From assembly GCA_030295235.1 (NCBI GenBank), contig AP026136.1, positions 1,302,001 through 1,366,000 on the forward strand: DNA of 64,000 nt, read 5' to 3'. A program made the position numbers and the translations under genes. Positions 2,831-64,000 of the stretch are shown one piece after another. Source of the stretch: Fistulifera solaris (lineage: Eukaryota; Bacillariophyta; Bacillariophyceae; Naviculales; Stauroneidaceae). How positions within the stretch are numbered: position 1 is the first letter of the stretch; every line of letters begins with the position of its first letter. The notes under the pieces were generated by a model. It did no database searches, was not told the DNA's origin, and worked only from the letters and a program-made list of their open reading frames with translations.

Positions 2831-3081
2831 TCGCATAGGACCGATAGAATGAGCCGTCTCAGCTAGCCGAGCTGTCGTTTTTTTTGTGATCGGATCGACA
2901 AAGATACTATTTTTCACCGAAACCTTTCTTGCTGTCGTTGCTGCGTTTCAAAGTGATGATTCGTCCCTGCGAACGCTGTCAGGACGAATAATTGTGTCTT
3001 CATTAAAACCACCGTGGATCCTTCACTGTACTGATAATCGGTTCATGTAAAAGAGTAATGCGCATAGGAAATTTCATTGCC

Positions 3082-3470
3082 AATCGCCTGCCTTTCCTGT
3101 TGAATATATAAGCATTTACTATCTAAAGTCGATTGTATGTGGTGATGGACATAAAGAGAAAGAAGGATCATCGCTTGCGAAGACGACGACAACAACAACA
3201 CAAAGAAGTCATTAACAATTAAATAATAACAACCAAACAAAAATAATACCGGAGTAATGAAATGCATGTTCTTGTCTTCGTGACTGAAAATGCAGTCGTG
3301 TCGAAAAACAGAAAACACTTTGAGCATACAGTAAATATATAGCTCCGGAGTAATGGACAAGAATCCGCAAGGACTTTCGACGTGAAGAATCGAGGCGTGC
3401 CTTGTCAATGATGCTGATGGTAATTGCATCGTTTTGAAGCAAGTGTTACTACTTACCAGTACCAAGCTAG
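3082..3470 (+). repeat. Dispersed repeat R, copy 1
   Basis: This copy matches 6709-7067 in the same orientation over nearly its whole length. Shared landmarks, in order, are AATCGCCTGCC, a TAAGCATT-AGTCGATTGT block, GATAAAGAGAAAG, an ACAACAACAACAC tract, AAATGCAGTCGTGT, CACTTTGAGCATACAG, GACAAGAATCCGCAAGG, CGAGGCGTGCCTTG and TAATTGCATCGTTTT. A partial extra copy of the AATGCAGTCGTG block lies near 3525-3545. No coding potential is visible. It lies just 3' of the minus-strand MFS remnant. Confidence 0.75.
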
Positions 3471-3771
3471 TAAAATGAACGTTGGATGAACCTGCAGTCT
3501 GGCTCAAGAAGATCATAATTCATGACTGAAATGCAGTCGTGGCGAAATAGCACCATAATAGCACATTGATTTTCGATCATTAGAAAAGGTTGGGGAAACA
3601 ACAATATACAAAGATGTTCGATTGCCAGGAAAGGTATTTCTTCATCCAAACTGGGCTTTAAATTGCCTTCTGGCTCTGACACCTTTTCTATTGCAGACAT
3701 TGGGGTAATTTGATGTTTGTGTTGCTCTACGAAAAAACAACCGATAGCAAACTTTTATGCATGATTCGTAT

Positions 3772-5105
3772 CTATTCGAACTCTTTTCCCGAGTCGTACA
3801 GAATTATGAATGAAATCGCCCCAAGAACGTAGATGAGTGCATTCAAACCAAAGACTAAACTCCAGTCTTGACCACTTGCATCGAGTATCCTTCCCGTCAA
3901 GTATGTGGCACCTGTTCCAATCAACACGGCTGGTAGGCTCGTAACACTGTACAAAAGACCTGCCCATTTGGGGCCGCTCTTTTTGTGATTGGCTGCATCA
4001 TAGCCAGCCGAGTTAAAACACAGAAACCCAATGTTGACGGCTACGTAGAGCTGGGCTGCCCAAGCTTGTTCGGGAATATGCCAAGCGAGCAAACCCAGCG
4101 ACAGAGCTGGGACAAGAAGACCGATTGATTAAAAAAAATTTCCGAATATTTGTTCGGGCTCTCTAGTCCTTGGAATCTACGATTCGTTGCCCAATTGGCA
4201 TCGGCCGAGGTCCCTGCGACTATACCTCCCACAACACCTGCTACACAGGGCAAGATCGACAGCCAAGCCGAGCCGCGCACACCAATTCCATATTGTTCCG
4301 AATAGAACATCAGTGTCCAAGCTGAAGCCATAAAATTGCCCCAATTCTTGGCCGAGTGGGCCAGAAATATCGCCCACGCCCCTTTCGATTGAATTATTTC
4401 TTTCCATGGAGCATCCTTGATACTGAGCTGGTTATCATTTGAATACAAGTCATTTCCTTCCTTTGACGTAGTTGGGCTATCTTTCGCGAGAAACAACCAA
4501 CGGAAGCAACAAAAGTAGACAACCGCTGCCATAAACATAAAACAGTTCTCTCCAGTCTCCAAAAAAGTCCGAAATGACGGGACTTAACAACAACAAAGCC
4601 ACAATCGTTCCCGACTGAAAGCCGCTGAAAAGAAAAGCTAGTGCTGTTGTGCAGAAAAGAAATGATATCTACATGTGCGTAAGAGCGCCGGGCTTTCGCA
4701 TCGCAGACTAGTCGTACCTCTACTCTTCTCATTCACCGGAGTCCATTCATTGAGCAATCGTGTCGATGTGGGCAACAGAATACTCTCTCCTGCTCCTACA
4801 AGAGTACGAGCGATCAAAAGAGGTCTGATGGAAGAAGCGGCCGAGACTATCGTCAGCGGCGTACCAATGGTCGCGAGACTCCAAAGCGCAATACCCGAAG
4901 CCATCCGGAGTCGCGGAGACCACTGCCCCGCCAAGAATCCAGCGGGTAATATAACGAGAGCGTAGCCAAAGCTCAACAACGATGAGATGGAACCTTTGGT
5001 TGTATCCGTGAATTGAAACTCTTCCGCCATGGGAATGATAGCTACGGACATGGCAATGCGATCAGTCGCCGATAAACACGCGGTAAGCCATAATAGTCCC
5101 AGCAT
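3772..5105 (-). pseudogene. SLC17-like MFS anion transporter, probably dead
   Basis: The protein resembles the SLC17/ANTR phosphate-anion transporters. The first helix ends in SATDRIAMSVAIIPMAEEF, then come KGSISSLLSFGYALVILPAG, an ARTLVGAGES segment and EWTPVNEKSR. A GT-AG intron at 4644-4717 joins this to ALAFLFSGFQSGT. Later pieces contain KDAPWKEI, SKGAWAIFLAHSAKNWG and C-terminal helices ending in LYDSGKEFE. The frame is lost near 4510-4530 and again before TNIRKFF, and near 4128-4138 a T8 run is followed by TAA where the family has Gln (RKFFQSIG). Upstream, an in-frame TAG at 5121-5123 separates a plausible N-terminal extension from the first Met. Several independent lesions make a pseudogene more likely than sequencing error. 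Confidence 0.65.
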
Positions 5106-5598
5106 AATGTACTTGAGTGACTAGGGTTCGTTGTTTGTTGTTTCGATAAGCGAATTGTCTGTCCTTTGTGTAAGGGCAGTGCGGGGTTCGTCGAGACTTG
5201 TCGATGATGATAATTCGAATCTTCTTTCTATAGCAAGACATTCATCTCAACGAGCAAATTTACGCGATCGAAGCAGTCTTAGTGAAGATGAAGCGTGCGG
5301 TGTTAACGATATCCTGGTGGAAGGACCGCAGGCAATGCTGAAAGTGCGTTGACGCAATTGTAGAATAATAATGGCGAATAGAGCAGAAGCAGTCCGCCGC
5401 CCATCATGATTATCGTTCCGTTCCTTGTCATACTTTGCCTCTTCAGGCGAATGAGAATTGTCTATGTAGTCAAGGAGGATTAATTTTCATATTGTTGCAG
5501 AGCATTAAAGACTGCGATGGGAGACCGCGAGAGGCAGATAAGCTGCGAGAAAGCAAAACGCAACATTACCAGTAATAACATGTAAGGAAATAACACAT
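5106..5598. other. 5' region of MFS remnant
   Basis: The first ~130 bp on the minus strand stay open in the MFS frame apart from the TAG at 5121-5123, and encode a Ser/Thr-rich stretch that could be the lost N-terminus. The remainder up to the palindrome array shows no gene. Confidence 0.35.
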
Positions 5599-6050
5599 CC
5601 CCATTTTTCTGGGGACGCATGAAAACACCACCTGCCCAGATTTTCTGGGCGAGTGGTTTTCACACACACCCAGATTTTCTGGCTGATTGGTTTCCGCCCA
5701 CCCGGATTTCCTGGGTAAGAATGAAAACATCACATGCCCAGATTTTCTGTGGGAGTTGTTTTCACACTCACCCAGATTTTCTGGGAATGCATTCCCAGAT
5801 TTTCTGTGGGAGTTGTTTTCACACTCACCCAGATTTTCTGGGAATGCATGAAAACACCACATGCCCAGATTTTCTGGGTGATTGGTTTTCACAATCACCC
5901 AGATTTTCTGGGCGAGTGGTTTCACACTCACCCGGATTTTCTGGGTAAGCATGAAAACACCACATCCCCAGATTTTCTGGGGATGTGAAAACACAACACT
6001 CCCAGATTATCTGTGTACAAGAAAACACCCCATGCACAGATCATCATCTA
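5599..6050. repeat. Array of 14 regularly spaced palindromes
   Basis: The unit core is the palindrome CCCAGATTTTCTGGG. Fourteen cores or close variants start near 5600, 5635, 5669, 5701, 5737, 5771, 5794, 5828, 5864, 5898, 5931, 5967, 6001 and 6035. Spacing is 32-36 bp, except one 23-bp step. The ~19-bp linkers are of two kinds that are nearly reverse complements: GAAAACACCAC-type and GTGGTTTTCAC-type. The array is therefore self-complementary at two levels. A 57-bp segment (5737-5793) is tandemly duplicated at 5794-5850. Open frames on both strands give repetitive PDFLG- and ENLG-type peptides, a by-product of the repeat. It is not a CRISPR: the linkers are near-identical and this is a eukaryote. 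Confidence 0.9.
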
Positions 6051-6282
6051 TCTTATTCGCCCTTCTTGTTTCTCGTCGTCATGCCGTTGTCGTTCACTTA
6101 TTGACGATGAACGATGAATGAACAGCTTCTTGACAAATATTGTCAAGTGTATTGTACCCTTGCTGAAAGCACTGACTCAAGTCAACGTTCTAGTGACCGA
6201 CACTCGCCGTCGCGAGTCGGTCGATCACAGTAATCGACGCTGAAAAGATTCACAAGCAAATATAGCGTTCACGAAAAAAAAG
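6051..6282. other. Short spacer
   Basis: No gene seen. It contains a partly inverted CACTGACTCAAGT / ACTCGCCGTCGCGAGT region around 6170-6215; the ACTCGC-GTC-GCGAGT part can pair. Confidence 0.3.
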
Positions 6283-6708
6283 ATGAAAACAAAAAAAATA
6301 CATTATGCTCGCATCACAGGCTTCCTAGCTTCACTCGACCGCGTCGCCATCTCGGTAGCCTTTCTTCCCCTGTCATCCGAGTTTCCATATTCAAGTTCTA
6401 TGAAAGGGACATTAGCTTCCTTGTTCAGTGTCGGATACTGTCTACTCACTCTCCCACTTTGGGTCGAAAATGTATGACCCGAATGGGCTATGATGTCGGG
6501 TATTGCTGTCTGGAGTTTATCCACACTCGTCACGCCTAGTAGCCGGTATAACGCTATTGACACTCATGATAGCTAGAGCAATGGAGGGTGCTTGGGACAA
6601 GCATTGTGCTGCCTTCGACGCAACGATTTTGACTTTTTGGACTTTGCAAGAAGAAAAGAGTCGATTGGCGTTTGTGTTTAGTGGCTTTACTTGTGGGAAA
6701 ATTATGGA
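6283..6708 (+). pseudogene. Second SLC17-like MFS fragment
   Basis: Aligned to the minus-strand MFS remnant at 3772-5105, this copy shows TGFLASLDRVAISVAFLPL, SSMKGTLASLFSVGYCLLTLP and then a stop. Further homologous pieces follow in other frames: MSGIAVWSLSTLVTP, LMIARAMEGA and LQEEKSRLAFVFSGF. Homology ends near 6708, exactly where repeat R copy 2 begins, so the C-terminal half is missing. At the position of the 4644-4717 intron (after EKSR) this copy runs straight on without an intron. Stops and truncation make it a clear pseudogene. Confidence 0.7.
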
Positions 6709-7067
6709 AATCGCCTGCCTTTTCTGTTGTAGATACATAAGCATTGACTTTTTCAAGTCGATTGTTTATGATGATGGAGATAAAGAGAAAGAATCATTGC
6801 CTGCGGAGACAACAACAACAACACCAACAACACAAAAACATGAAAGTCAACTAAACAAAAATACTCCGTAACAAATAAATGCATGTTGTCGTATTCGTTA
6901 CGGAAATGCAGTCGTGTTGAAAACAGACAACACTTTGAGCATACAGAAAAATAAATATAGGTAATTGACAAGAATCCGCAAGGTGAATTATCGAGGCGTG
7001 CCTTGCTAATGATACTGATGGTACGGTAATTGCATCGTTTTCAATGAAATGTTTCTTACCAAGCTGA
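6709..7067 (+). repeat. Dispersed repeat R, copy 2
   Basis: This is the partner of 3082-3470, with the same landmarks in the same order and orientation. Its left end abuts the break of the MFS fragment. From 7068 to the kinase stop at 7293 nothing recognisable is present. Confidence 0.75.
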
Positions 7068-17462: not shown

Positions 17463-17976
17463 TAGTGATTGAGTAAAAAAAACTTAACAACGATGATGTT
17501 TAATAACTGATAGCCGATAGCCGAAAGTGCAAGTCTCCGACAACACTATCAGCAACAATGCAAAGGAATAGCGCCTAAGACCCAAAGAACGAAATTCTCT
17601 TTGATTACCTTTTTAAAAAACGAGACCTGGTATGCTTTTCTCCGCCACTAGCGCATGAGCAACGTTCTGTGTACGTCAAAACGTCACTTACCAAGAATTT
17701 CTGAGGATGTAAACTAATCACAATATGCGCAGATTTTCTGTGTACTTGAGAACACCACGTGACTCTTAAGTTTTTCTGTGCACGCGAAATCAAAACTTGA
17801 AAATACCTCTTGCCTAGATTTTGGGTGCACGAGAAAACCACACACACAGATTTTCGGACAACGTGGAAACTCCTCTGCACCAGATTTTATTTTCTTTTGT
17901 GCGCATCTTTTGCATTATTTCATATTATCGAGTGTGTTTATTATCTCAAAAGACGACGCCGTTTACAACATACAAC
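17463..17976. other. Intergenic with an eroded palindrome array (about 17720-17890)
   Basis: Around 17720-17890 are degraded units of the same family as 5599-6050: GCAGATTTTCTGTGT, AGTTTTTCTGTGC, CTAGATTTTGGGTGC, ACAGATTTTCGG and CCAGATTTTA. They are linked by GAGAACACCACGTG and GAGAAAACCAC-type spacers. Spacing is about 28-48 bp and the palindromes are imperfect. The tract ends ~90 bp before the start of the F-box gene. Confidence 0.65.
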
Positions 17977-25387: not shown

Positions 25388-26284
25388 GAGGAAATAAAAG
25401 GAACACTAGACTGTTTTCATTTTGCTGTTTCTGTTTTCGACTGACGATCGTCAAACGCTGAGACGGACCCATTGAGTTTCGATAGCAGTAAAAATTAGAG
25501 CAATAATAAGGCTAAACGTGCTCTAAAGAAAGCCTGTCTCAATCGTTGCATTTAATGCTCGCCTGTTCTGTTAGCAAAAGCTTTCTGATGTCATTCTTGA
25601 TCTCTGTCGATCTTAAAGCAGAGGGGTCGCTTGCGATACGAGAAGATATGAATTGAGAATGTGCATCAACAATATCATCAGCGATTAGAACACATCGACG
25701 ACTTTACAAGTTCGGTAGAGGTTTTTAGAAATAGCTTTATGCCTTCCCCTCTACCTGGTAAGCAAAATGTTCCTTTCTAAAACTTTATGAAGACGTTTTT
25801 CATCCAAATTTAGTTCATCTAAAAAGTTTTTTTGATTTTTATTGCTCGCGAGCAATGGGCAGACGCCGGAAGGCGTCTTTCATACTCAATAAATTTCGTT
25901 CGTCGCATTCGCCATCGACAACAAACTAGCGTTTCAATCAAATTTTGCATGATTTCTGCTTTTATTTTTCAGTTAAAGACTCATAGAGTTTTGATACAAG
26001 GGCATTCATTTTTAGTTTTTTTGAAGTTGACAAAATCGAGCATTTGGGTGTGCACGGTATGAAACGTAAGCTCTTTCTTCTTCCCTTGGCTGCGAAGGTT
26101 GGCTCTCTCGAACTTTGGTTATTTTCAAGCATACTACCGGCGTCGAGGCCGATATGCATTCTGTCAAAATGATGACAAAAAAAGCTCAGTCTCTACCTAA
26201 CCCAGATGTCTTTAGACCCGATCAAAAATATCAAAAATATATGTGACGTAGACTATTCTATACAAAATTTATGTGCATCTAACT
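25388..26284. other. Intergenic with dispersed repeat D, copy 1 (about 25841-25985)
   Basis: No gene seen. Repeat D copy 1 opens with two adjacent hairpins: the perfect 16-bp palindrome ATTGCTCGCGAGCAAT (25841-25856) and AGACGCC-GGAA-GGCGTCT (25861-25878). The downstream part (CTCAATAAATTTCGTTCGTCG, CCATCGACAACAAACTAGCG, TTTCTGCTTTTA) matches 42030-42130. The opening GGGCAGACGCCG matches ~41800. Confidence 0.6.
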
Positions 26285-41742: not shown

Positions 41743-41770
41743 CCAGGTACTGGTACCGGTACCGGTACCA
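41743..41770. repeat. GGTACC block
   Basis: A run of overlapping GGTACC/GTACCGG units, TACTGGTACCGGTACCGG. Similar blocks are at about 21069, 35812, 41968 and 45118. Confidence 0.6.
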
Positions 41771-41785
41771 CTTTACTGCACTCGA

Positions 41786-42130
41786 GCGAAGTGAGCGATG
41801 GGCAGACGCCGACGTTTCGTCGTTCGCACAAACACCACACCCCCACATTTTCTGGGTACGTGAAAACACCACACTCCCATATTTTCTGGGTACGTGAAAA
41901 CACGACGCCCACATTTTCTGGGTACGTGAAAACACCCCAGGCCCATATTTTCTGGGTACGTCAACATACTGGTACAGTACCTGGTACCGGTACCATTCTC
42001 AACAAATTTTCGCGTTTCGTCGTTCGCACAAAACGTTCGTTCCTCAATAAATTTCTTTCGTCGCCATCGACATCAAACTAGCGTTTTCAATCTAACGTCG
42101 CGTAACTTTTGCTGTTTATCAGCTCAATAC
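41786..42130 (+). repeat. Dispersed repeat D copy 2, interrupted by a palindrome-array insertion
   Basis: Flanks match repeat D copy 1 (25841-25985). Between them, 41833-42012 holds four palindromic units (starts near 41842, 41876, 41908 and 41942; CCCACATTTTCTGGG and CCCATATTTTCTGGG) joined by TACGTGAAAACACC linkers, then a GGTACC block. The 180 bp are bounded by an exact 20-bp direct repeat, CGTTTCGTCGTTCGCACAAA, at 41813-41832 and 42013-42032. This is what an insertion with target-site duplication, or a repeat-mediated duplication, would leave. Confidence 0.8.
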
Positions 42131-42912
42131 TCTTTCTTATGAATATACGGTTTATAAATGAGCAGTTTCTTGGCGATCCTTGAGAGGTCTTGCCAACGAT
42201 CGAAAATTCACTGTCGACAGAGAAAACATTGCCGACAAAAGCTCTCCGAAAGCCGAGAAACATACTGACGCCATTCTGTGACAATATTCAGAAGCATCTT
42301 GCTTCGCTTCAGACGTTCTCACAAGAAAAGGATTCTTTATCGTCTCATTCTCGCTAATCGATTTTCGCTTAAAATTTTCTTTCTCCTTGCGTCGAATTAT
42401 CGAATCATCAACTTCGCACGAGCGACAGAACCGCTTAGATTCAAATAAACTTAAGTCAATAGTCACGATTGATGAATATTTATTTCCTATCACCAATAAA
42501 ACATCTATTTTTCCTCTGATATAGCATTGTCGGGACCTAACTGATTATTGACTTTGTACGCGAAACTCGCTTTATGGCTTGCGGGATCGAGGCCAAATGC
42601 ACGCTTCCCGACGGTCATTGTTGATTCACAGCTCTTCATTCAAAAAATTAGAGATATTGCGGATTTTTGAGGGCAAGTAACAAGCCGAGAAAAAGTAAGG
42701 GCAACCTGACCAAATCCGAAAAGATATCGCCACTGCCTTTCCACAAAGCTTTTCTTGAGCGCTGCGTACGAAGGTATCACATAAACTACTATTCATCCTC
42801 AATCCTCATTTCAATCCACAGGATGTAAAAATTGCTGGTTTATGCAACAATAGCTTGATCCAAAAATGACCATGGATCGCCATTTTTTACCCCGCCCGGA
42901 TCGAAAAACATG
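42131..42912. other. Intergenic
   Basis: No gene supported; a 114-codon minus-strand frame (42152-42496) has no features. Confidence 0.35.
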
Positions 42913-63484: not shown

Positions 63485-64000
63485 TGTGAGAAGTGAGATG
63501 TGAGATGTGAGATATGAGAAGTGAGAAGTGAGATGTGAGAAGTGAGAAGTGAGATGTGAGAAGTGAGATGTGAGAAGTGAGATGTGAGAAGTGAGAAGTG
63601 AGAAGTGAGAAGTGAGATGTGAGAAGTGTTAAGTGAGAAGTGAGAAGTGAGAAGTGAGAAGTGAGATGTGAGAAGTGAGATGTGAGAAGTGAGATGTGAG
63701 AAGTGAGATGTGAGAAGTGAGATGTGAGATGTGAGAAGTGAGAAGTGAGATGTGAGAAGTGAGATGTGAGAAGTGAGAAGTGAGATGTGAGAAGTGAGAA
63801 GTGAGAAGTGAGATGTGAGATGTGAGATGTGAGAAGTGAAAAGTGAGATATGAGAAGTGAGAAGTGAGAAGTAAGATGTGAGATGTGAGAAGTGAGAAGT
63901 GAGAAGTGAGATGTGAGATGTGAGAAGTGAGAAGTGAGAAGTGAGATGTGAGAAGTGAGAAGTGAGAAGTGAGAAGTGAGAAGTGAGATGTGAGAAGTGA
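63485..64000 (+). repeat. Heptanucleotide satellite, runs off the window
   Basis: A tandem array of the 7-mer GTGAGAA and its variant GTGAGAT, with rare others (GTGTTAA, ATGAGAA, GTGAAAA). It covers at least 516 bp to the window end. The two main variants are interspersed in an irregular order. With the nearby TTAGGG-like motif it could be subtelomeric, but that is only a suggestion. Confidence 0.9.

Follow-up and report, generated by a model that had tools for sequence, protein, structure and literature searches.

A dispersed palindromic minisatellite superfamily of the diatom Fistulifera solaris, with sampled arrays mostly 5' of genes

The window is a 64-kb stretch of Fistulifera solaris DNA (C12:1302001-1366000) that carries a palindromic repeat array near its left end. 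On one side of the array is an MFS transporter gene on the minus strand (3772..5105), composed of three overlapping or adjacent ORFs that were taken as exons; the ORF at 4638-5105 matches Pfam MFS_1 (2.3e-19). Its start codon is about 490 bp from the array, and the gene is transcribed away from it. On the other side, a plus-strand MFS paralogue is represented by its 5' portion (6131..6709); this matches the first ORF of the MFS gene at C9:509 (L059) and is cut off at about 6709. It also points away from the array, in the opposite direction to the first MFS gene. A reading of 6131-6709 as the conserved tail of a mobile element was rejected because it is this first ORF. The MFS gene, the array and the paralogue ORF together (window 3071-6709) match C10:294-298k in pieces of ~90-98% identity. 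A 77% direct repeat (3082-3458 and 6709-7061) bounds this 3.6-kb segment, which therefore looks like a duplicated or translocated one. The homeologous contig C11 matches the window here only from about 7064 onward.

The array belongs to a 34-bp class and is confirmed largely as the initial annotation described it, apart from one core and one gap. It spans 5599..6015 on the plus strand and, by mismatch search and direct parsing, has 13 CCCAGATTTTCTGGG-like cores, starting at 5599, 5635, 5669, 5701, 5737, 5771, 5794, 5828, 5864, 5898, 5931, 5967 and 6001. A core in the window was called at <=3 mismatches to CCCAGATTTTCTGGG, with all 13 on the plus strand, and six of the 13 are exact. Both strands of the window yield 26 core matches, including 7 cores of this same array that are also read on the minus strand, while 100 shuffles gave a mean of 1.69 and at most 6. 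Fourteen palindromes had been claimed. The fourteenth exists only as a remnant, which was read in the sequence after the final linker (6016..6050, plus strand; CACAGATcatca; CACAGAT..., about 6035-6050). The claimed period of 32-36 bp holds for 11 of the 12 core-to-core steps (36, 34, 32, 36, 34, 23, 34, 36, 34, 33, 36 and 34), the exception being the 23-bp gap. Each core is a palindrome with 6-bp arms around TTT; at other loci, core position 5 is frequently not G, and this breaks one pair.

The linkers come in two forms in mixed order, as had been reported. By eye, seven are in one orientation (one truncated) and six are their approximate reverse complements. The usual orientation, of the gcatgaaaacacc type, is found on the plus strand at 5614..5634 and again at 5716-5736, 5786-5793 (truncated), 5843-5863, 5946-5966, 5982-6000 and 6016-6034. 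The inverted orientation, of the gagtggttttcacac type, is found on the minus strand at 5650..5668 and again at 5684-5700, 5752-5770, 5809-5827, 5879-5897 and 5913-5930. The cores all keep one orientation (TTTT) although the linkers flip.

Two further arrays of the family are in the window. A degenerate one lies at 17681..17917 on the plus strand, with two cores at <=3 mismatches in the core search and others recognized by eye; an ApaG-domain gene starts about 120 bp downstream (18033, plus strand). A 4-unit array of subfamily CCCANATTTTCTGGGTACGTGAAAACACCACAC, identified by TRF and parsing, lies at 41830..41961 on the plus strand. Separately, a long tandem array of 14/35-bp units (TGTGAGAAGTGAGA) occupies 63485-64000 and reaches the window end.

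The genome search covered 51.7 Mb in 61 contigs. The exact core CCCANATTTTCTGGG occurs 537 times (300 + 237), TCCAGATTTTCTGGA 621 times (331 + 290) and TCCAGAAATTCTGGA 2,327 times (1154 + 1173), and the reversed control words for all three 15-bp cores do not occur once in the 51.7 Mb. That this is a diatom genome is also seen in its 23 hits to the silicon-transporter family, some being fragments of a single gene. The loci fetched for closer study (L-numbers) are among the matches listed; C1 and C2 supply most of them, and the remainder are on C4, C6, C8, C9, C10 and C33. Parsing of these loci found 34-bp-unit arrays at dozens of places, with the unit type CCCANATTTTCTGGG-tACGTGAAAACACCACnC. 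Another class is built of alternating TCCA..TGGA and CCCA..TGGG dimers, and a further class consists of alternating 20+32-bp arrays. One array, on C5, alternates three palindromes (ACAGAAATTCTGT, TTCCAGAAATTCTGGAA and GGTCCAGAAATTCTGGACC). Generally, a unit consists of a palindromic core of 15 bp and a linker, the period is 34-36 bp, and the short arrays are scattered on many contigs. The alternative that the motif is found only at 5599, and at random spacing elsewhere, was checked by this search and does not hold: the family has thousands of exact cores and dozens of 34-bp-unit loci.

The label of minisatellite, also proposed in the initial annotation, fits these arrays. Minisatellites are head-to-tail arrays of 10-100 bp units. 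Here, TRF reports periods of 34 and 57 (two units), parsing gives 34-36 or 20+32, and there are many related arrays genome-wide where the controls give zero. Homogenization within arrays is seen in part, as L026, L027 and L039 have a uniform T at position 5 and L024 and L014 are mixed. The arrays are a dispersed palindromic minisatellite superfamily. Such repeats are familiar as a kind; this one has an unusual unit, an unusual position and a subgenome-specific presence. In the open-licence literature, no naming or description of a diatom palindromic or Fistulifera minisatellite family was found. Tandem repeats are error-prone in assemblies, and the arrays might in principle be an assembly artefact or collapsed repeat. 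This explanation is very hard to credit given thousands of cores on many contigs, sequences that differ from array to array, collinear homeologous flanks and paralogues with related yet different unit order.

The mixed linker order is a local feature. The linker is framed by the inverted repeat TCTGGG...CCCAGA. A strict flipped pattern (TTTTCTGGG N3-10 GTTTTCAC) has 3 matches genome-wide and the unflipped pattern has 214, although the strict form misses variants and caught only 2 of the 6 flipped linkers seen by eye in the 5599 array. All 3 strict matches are in the 5599 array and its C10 paralogue (C10:297). With this ratio, a general linker-flip mechanism is rejected, and the strict flipped matches are confined to one lineage. 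Template switching between short inverted repeats, as described in one published report, homogenizes the arms and inverts the spacer (PMC8604942). One such inversion may have produced the reverse-complement linkers at 5599, and tandem duplication of the mixed units may have followed, which would explain the mixed order.

The core is better conserved than the linker. Within arrays, the difference per site is 0.137 in the core and 0.272 in the linker, and the core is lower in 28 of 30 arrays; this comparison leans somewhat on detection by core (<=4 mismatches), but cores found via the linker are still more informative than linkers found via the core. Some outer positions of the two arms also covary. 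Compared with 500 within-array shuffles, covariation is higher than in every one of them at outward pairs 3-5 in the 34-bp class (332 units, 27 arrays) and at outward pairs 2 and 4 in the other class (93 units, 8 arrays). This excess is not a probability because the units of one array are related. At the remaining outward pairs, covariation is not above the within-array shuffles. Position 5 behaves differently: none of its 232 non-majority units is paired, the opposite C at core position 11 being constant (the centre was used for detection). This speaks against a strict hairpin requirement, and strict hairpin selection is weakened as an explanation.

Folding distinguishes the 5599 array from an ordinary one. 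Compared with shuffles, the 5599 array has a z of -15.3 as RNA and -12.9 as DNA, and the three-palindrome C5 array has a z of -11.3 as RNA. The sole ordinary 34-bp array folded (L014) is modestly better than its shuffles, with a z of -2.8. The idea that the family is designed around pairing of linker to linker is not supported, since flipped linkers are local. The same results bear on the proposal that the arrays are transcribed as hairpins and cut into small RNAs or kept as structured 5' leaders. The strong folds of the 5599 and C5 arrays and the covarying outer arms are in its favor. An RNA hairpin gene is recognized by compensated stem pairs; here, some outer pairs covary and pair 5-11 does not. 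The weak fold of the ordinary array also counts against the proposal, and the predicted 5599 fold is long-range linker pairing that depends on the local inverted linkers. Rfam has no match over the gathering score in the 64-kb window. Altogether, the hairpin RNA proposal is quite improbable.

A subfamily of the arrays is associated with a mobile element. Several loci with the unit CCCANATTTTCTGGGTACGTGAAAACACC have common flanks and constitute the TACGTGAAAACACC-linker subfamily. L026, L027 and L047 are inside elements with terminal inverted repeats (TIRs) at both ends, the TIRs beginning with GGCAACCACTCCATGCTGGTGGACC. Of the 8-bp duplications, those of L026 and L027 (CACCAAAC and ACTTTTAC) are exact, and L047 has a near-match; no 8-bp target duplication was seen at loci beyond these three. 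L041, L042/L043 and L048 have a single TIR end. The 25-mer of the TIR (GGCAACCACTCCATGCTGGTGG) occurs at 20 places in the genome with <=3 mismatches. At the fetched loci, it adjoins only arrays of the TACGTGAAAACACC-linker subfamily, and it was seen at a minority of these loci. We take this TIR element with its 8-bp target-site duplication (TSD) to be hAT-like and non-autonomous; the hallmarks of Helitrons are 5' TC, 3' CTRR with a hairpin and no TSD. In the window, the 41830 array is carried by a truncated copy of the mobile element (41772..42898, plus strand), in which 41 bp to the left of the array and 905 bp to its right match L026 at 88% and 90%, respectively.

Other features were observed around these elements. 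Strings of GGTACC-type palindromes adjoin TACGTGAAAACACC-linker subfamily arrays (window 41745-41990; L027 and L044). Between about 41349 and 45261 of the window, C12 differs from C11 by the mobile element and a stretch 86% like C7:195-197k. A fragment resembling the mobile element lies at window 25827-25960 and has no array, which makes it useful for placing the entry of the array. L042-L043 (C4:1067-1075k) is a 3.3-kb two-array unit in three tandem copies of >99% identity.

Repeats flanking the arrays were compared with a null of 60 mismatched flank pairs. Within 700 bp, inverted repeats are above the null in 5 of 43 loci (L017, L025, L027, L035 and L047), with an excess over the null maximum of one base except in L047, and direct repeats are above it in 3 of 43 (L026, L027 and L041), being 23-30 bp long and near the array. 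The 700-bp limit missed the known L026 TIR pair, so that longer elements may hide from this comparison. The 5599 array has no repeat above the null in its 700-bp flanks. One alternative is that every array goes back to a single DNA transposon family, with the TIR GGCAACCACTCCATGCTGGTGG and an 8-bp TSD, as a remnant whose repeats were internal or subterminal sites of the element. It draws on the 20 TIR places, the TSDs (near-match in L047), the flanks common to TACGTGAAAACACC-linker loci and the direct repeats at L026, L027 and L041. Against these are about 3,500 exact cores compared with 20 TIR matches, the restriction of the TIR to the neighborhood of TACGTGAAAACACC-linker arrays and the few flank repeats above the null, and the alternative is accordingly improbable. 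On this evidence, one TIR element appears to carry subfamily members and probably does not explain the family as a whole. The mobile-element origin raised in the initial annotation is thus shown for TACGTGAAAACACC-linker subfamily members only.

Most of the sampled arrays, which come largely from C1 and C2, are 5' of genes, and they are often flanked by two genes with divergent transcription. Gene context was taken from codon-scored ORFs, predicted by a finder trained on 11 long window ORFs, rather than from annotation. Over 42 loci (largest array per locus), 52 of 58 neighboring gene ends point away from the array, and 41 of 45 do so without the ten loci assigned by the analyst to the TACGTGAAAACACC-linker subfamily. 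Twenty loci are two-sided: 15 are divergent, 5 tandem and none convergent. At random intergenic points, 224 of 416 ends (54%) point away, with 53 divergent, 66 tandem and 20 convergent cases. These control points are >=100 bp from ORFs and come from the window and three arbitrary 10-kb stretches (94 kb in all); the three stretches are array-free, with only six scattered fuzzy core matches. The binomial p for array loci against random points is 5e-9, which is a guide only, given overlapping draws and some paralogy among the array loci. In a second control with length-weighted window ORFs, the proportion pointing away is 0.59. From the array edge to the start codon of the outward gene, the median distance is 331 bp (quartiles 174 and 532). 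With an MFS ORF pointing outward on either side, the 5599 array likewise lay between divergent genes. Twenty neighbor proteins were compared with Pfam, and 18 have a match at E<=0.001, 17 of them above the cut-off. The neighbors are thus ordinary genes, with families such as poly(A) polymerase, TAP42, PPR, cactin and amidohydrolase (found twice, in a homeologous pair), and no common function is apparent among the scanned proteins.

F. solaris is an allodiploid, and a report on RNP editing in this species describes a CRISPR guide target identical in both homeologous apt genes (PMC13276009). This target has one exact match each on C38 and C39. Sequence matches identify the homeologous contig pairs C12/C11, C1/C2, C5/C6 and C9/C10. 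Nineteen homeologous sites were compared. The array is absent from 14, of other make-up at 3 and of the same kind at 2. For one part of this comparison, 16 gene pieces, from source arrays mostly on C1, each located the homeologous partner, and 15 partner sites were read (all but that of L045). Twelve of these have no array, one has an array of another class (L046/L076) and two have the same kind. The 12 empty partners have 0-2 cores at <=3 mismatches, a count inside the background range given by 30 resampled sequences per site; L080, whose partner L023 has a 50-core array, shows 2 stray cores and is at the top of its background. The 'absent' call for L015/L070 is weaker because the alignment covers the gene side only. 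Arrays of the same kind occur in the pair L013/L077, where 4 cores are present, and in L037/L078, where the 9 cores are about 84-87% like the L037 array.

Individual sites illustrate the turnover. An array of 7 units at C9:510 has none at the homeologous C10:520, and no core is found at the C11 site homeologous to the degenerate array at ~17,690. C2:773 and C1:820 have arrays of differing make-up between ~90% identical flanks, and the 34-bp array at C10:297 is matched, in the same place, by a long 20+32-bp array at C9:281. Seven empty sites were aligned. Their flanks differ and they are not clean deletions or insertions, so that gain is not separable from loss; no target duplication was seen at these seven sites. 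That 14 of the 19 homeologous sites have no array speaks against an essential function, and the 2 arrays common in kind to both homeologs mean that not all arrays turn over fast.

These patterns are compatible with a purely selfish or neutral minisatellite whose arrays enter nucleosome-free, insertion-tolerant promoters and are inert there. The absence of arrays from 14 of 19 homeologous sites where the neighboring sequence is still alignable, the lack of a common function among the scanned neighbors and the swapping of array kinds at one site are expected from such a repeat. The better-kept core is not, and tolerance of spacers alone would not predict that 0 of 20 two-sided loci are convergent. 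The chances of this explanation are evenly divided. It overlaps with the reading that we favor because the two differ only in their last, regulatory step.

The favored reading is that the arrays are a dispersed promoter-resident palindromic minisatellite of F. solaris that may tune adjacent genes, and taken as a whole it is likely. In this account, seeds would enter open promoter chromatin either with the TIR element or as filler during break repair, after which slippage and unequal exchange would enlarge the arrays. When the polymerase switches template on the hairpin arms, it could keep the palindromes perfect and could also invert the stretch between the arms. The arrays would probably add clustered sites for a putative dimeric DNA-binding protein, or exclude nucleosomes. 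Genes on both sides might then be tuned by the arrays, and differently in the two subgenomes. This regulatory step is the weakest part of the account and is by itself less likely than not. A stronger version is unlikely: here a mobile palindromic regulatory module, its palindromes maintained by template switching, would invade bidirectional promoters and rewire adjacent gene pairs differently in the two subgenomes, so adding to homeolog expression bias.

Several known systems resemble the family in part. CRISPR arrays have regular palindromic repeats with unique spacers in a prokaryotic host. The F. solaris arrays share the regular palindromic repeats about 34 bp apart; unlike CRISPR, their linkers are alike within and between arrays, and they are in diatom nuclear DNA. 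As the initial annotation had held, this is eukaryotic DNA and a CRISPR array is rejected, because the linkers are conserved and the host is not prokaryotic. A two-core pattern has no match in viral contigs or prokaryote genome contigs. The bacterial REP/BIME elements are intergenic palindromes with conserved linkers in alternate orientation, and the present arrays share these features. They differ in being eukaryotic, in their longer tandem arrays and in cores that are all in one orientation. Non-autonomous, hAT-like TIR elements with an 8-bp TSD resemble those in which TACGTGAAAACACC-linker subfamily members sit; the TIR was seen at a minority of fetched loci.

Among eukaryotic repeats, the SIRC of Arabidopsis are described as short interrupted repeat cassettes with diverse low-copy spacers, from which tandem repeats were filtered out, and with a pericentromeric peak (PMC10342631). 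They are eukaryotic yet CRISPR-like in layout, a link to MITEs has been suggested for them and some of their repeats are palindromic (PMC10342631), all of which recalls the F. solaris arrays. In contrast to SIRC so described, the F. solaris linkers are conserved, the repeat is tandem and the sampled arrays are gene-adjacent, which places them outside SIRC. Dispersed euchromatic satellites include Drosophila 1.688, those of Crassostrea gigas and Tribolium TCAST (PMC10048060, PMC3411249). They form short arrays near genes, with some copies in transposons and a suggested regulatory role, as here. The F. solaris family differs in its 34-bp palindromic unit, where such satellites generally have longer monomers, in sampled arrays that are mostly 5' of genes and in a presence that varies between homeologs.

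The family offers many natural replicates for observing how palindromes are kept perfect and how spacers are inverted. According to one study, subgenome-preferential expression is seen in about 61% of the homeologous gene pairs of F. solaris, for which promoter motifs are suspected (PMC5935921). Promoter arrays present on one subgenome only, as at 14 of the 19 sites, are a concrete candidate cause of this expression preference.
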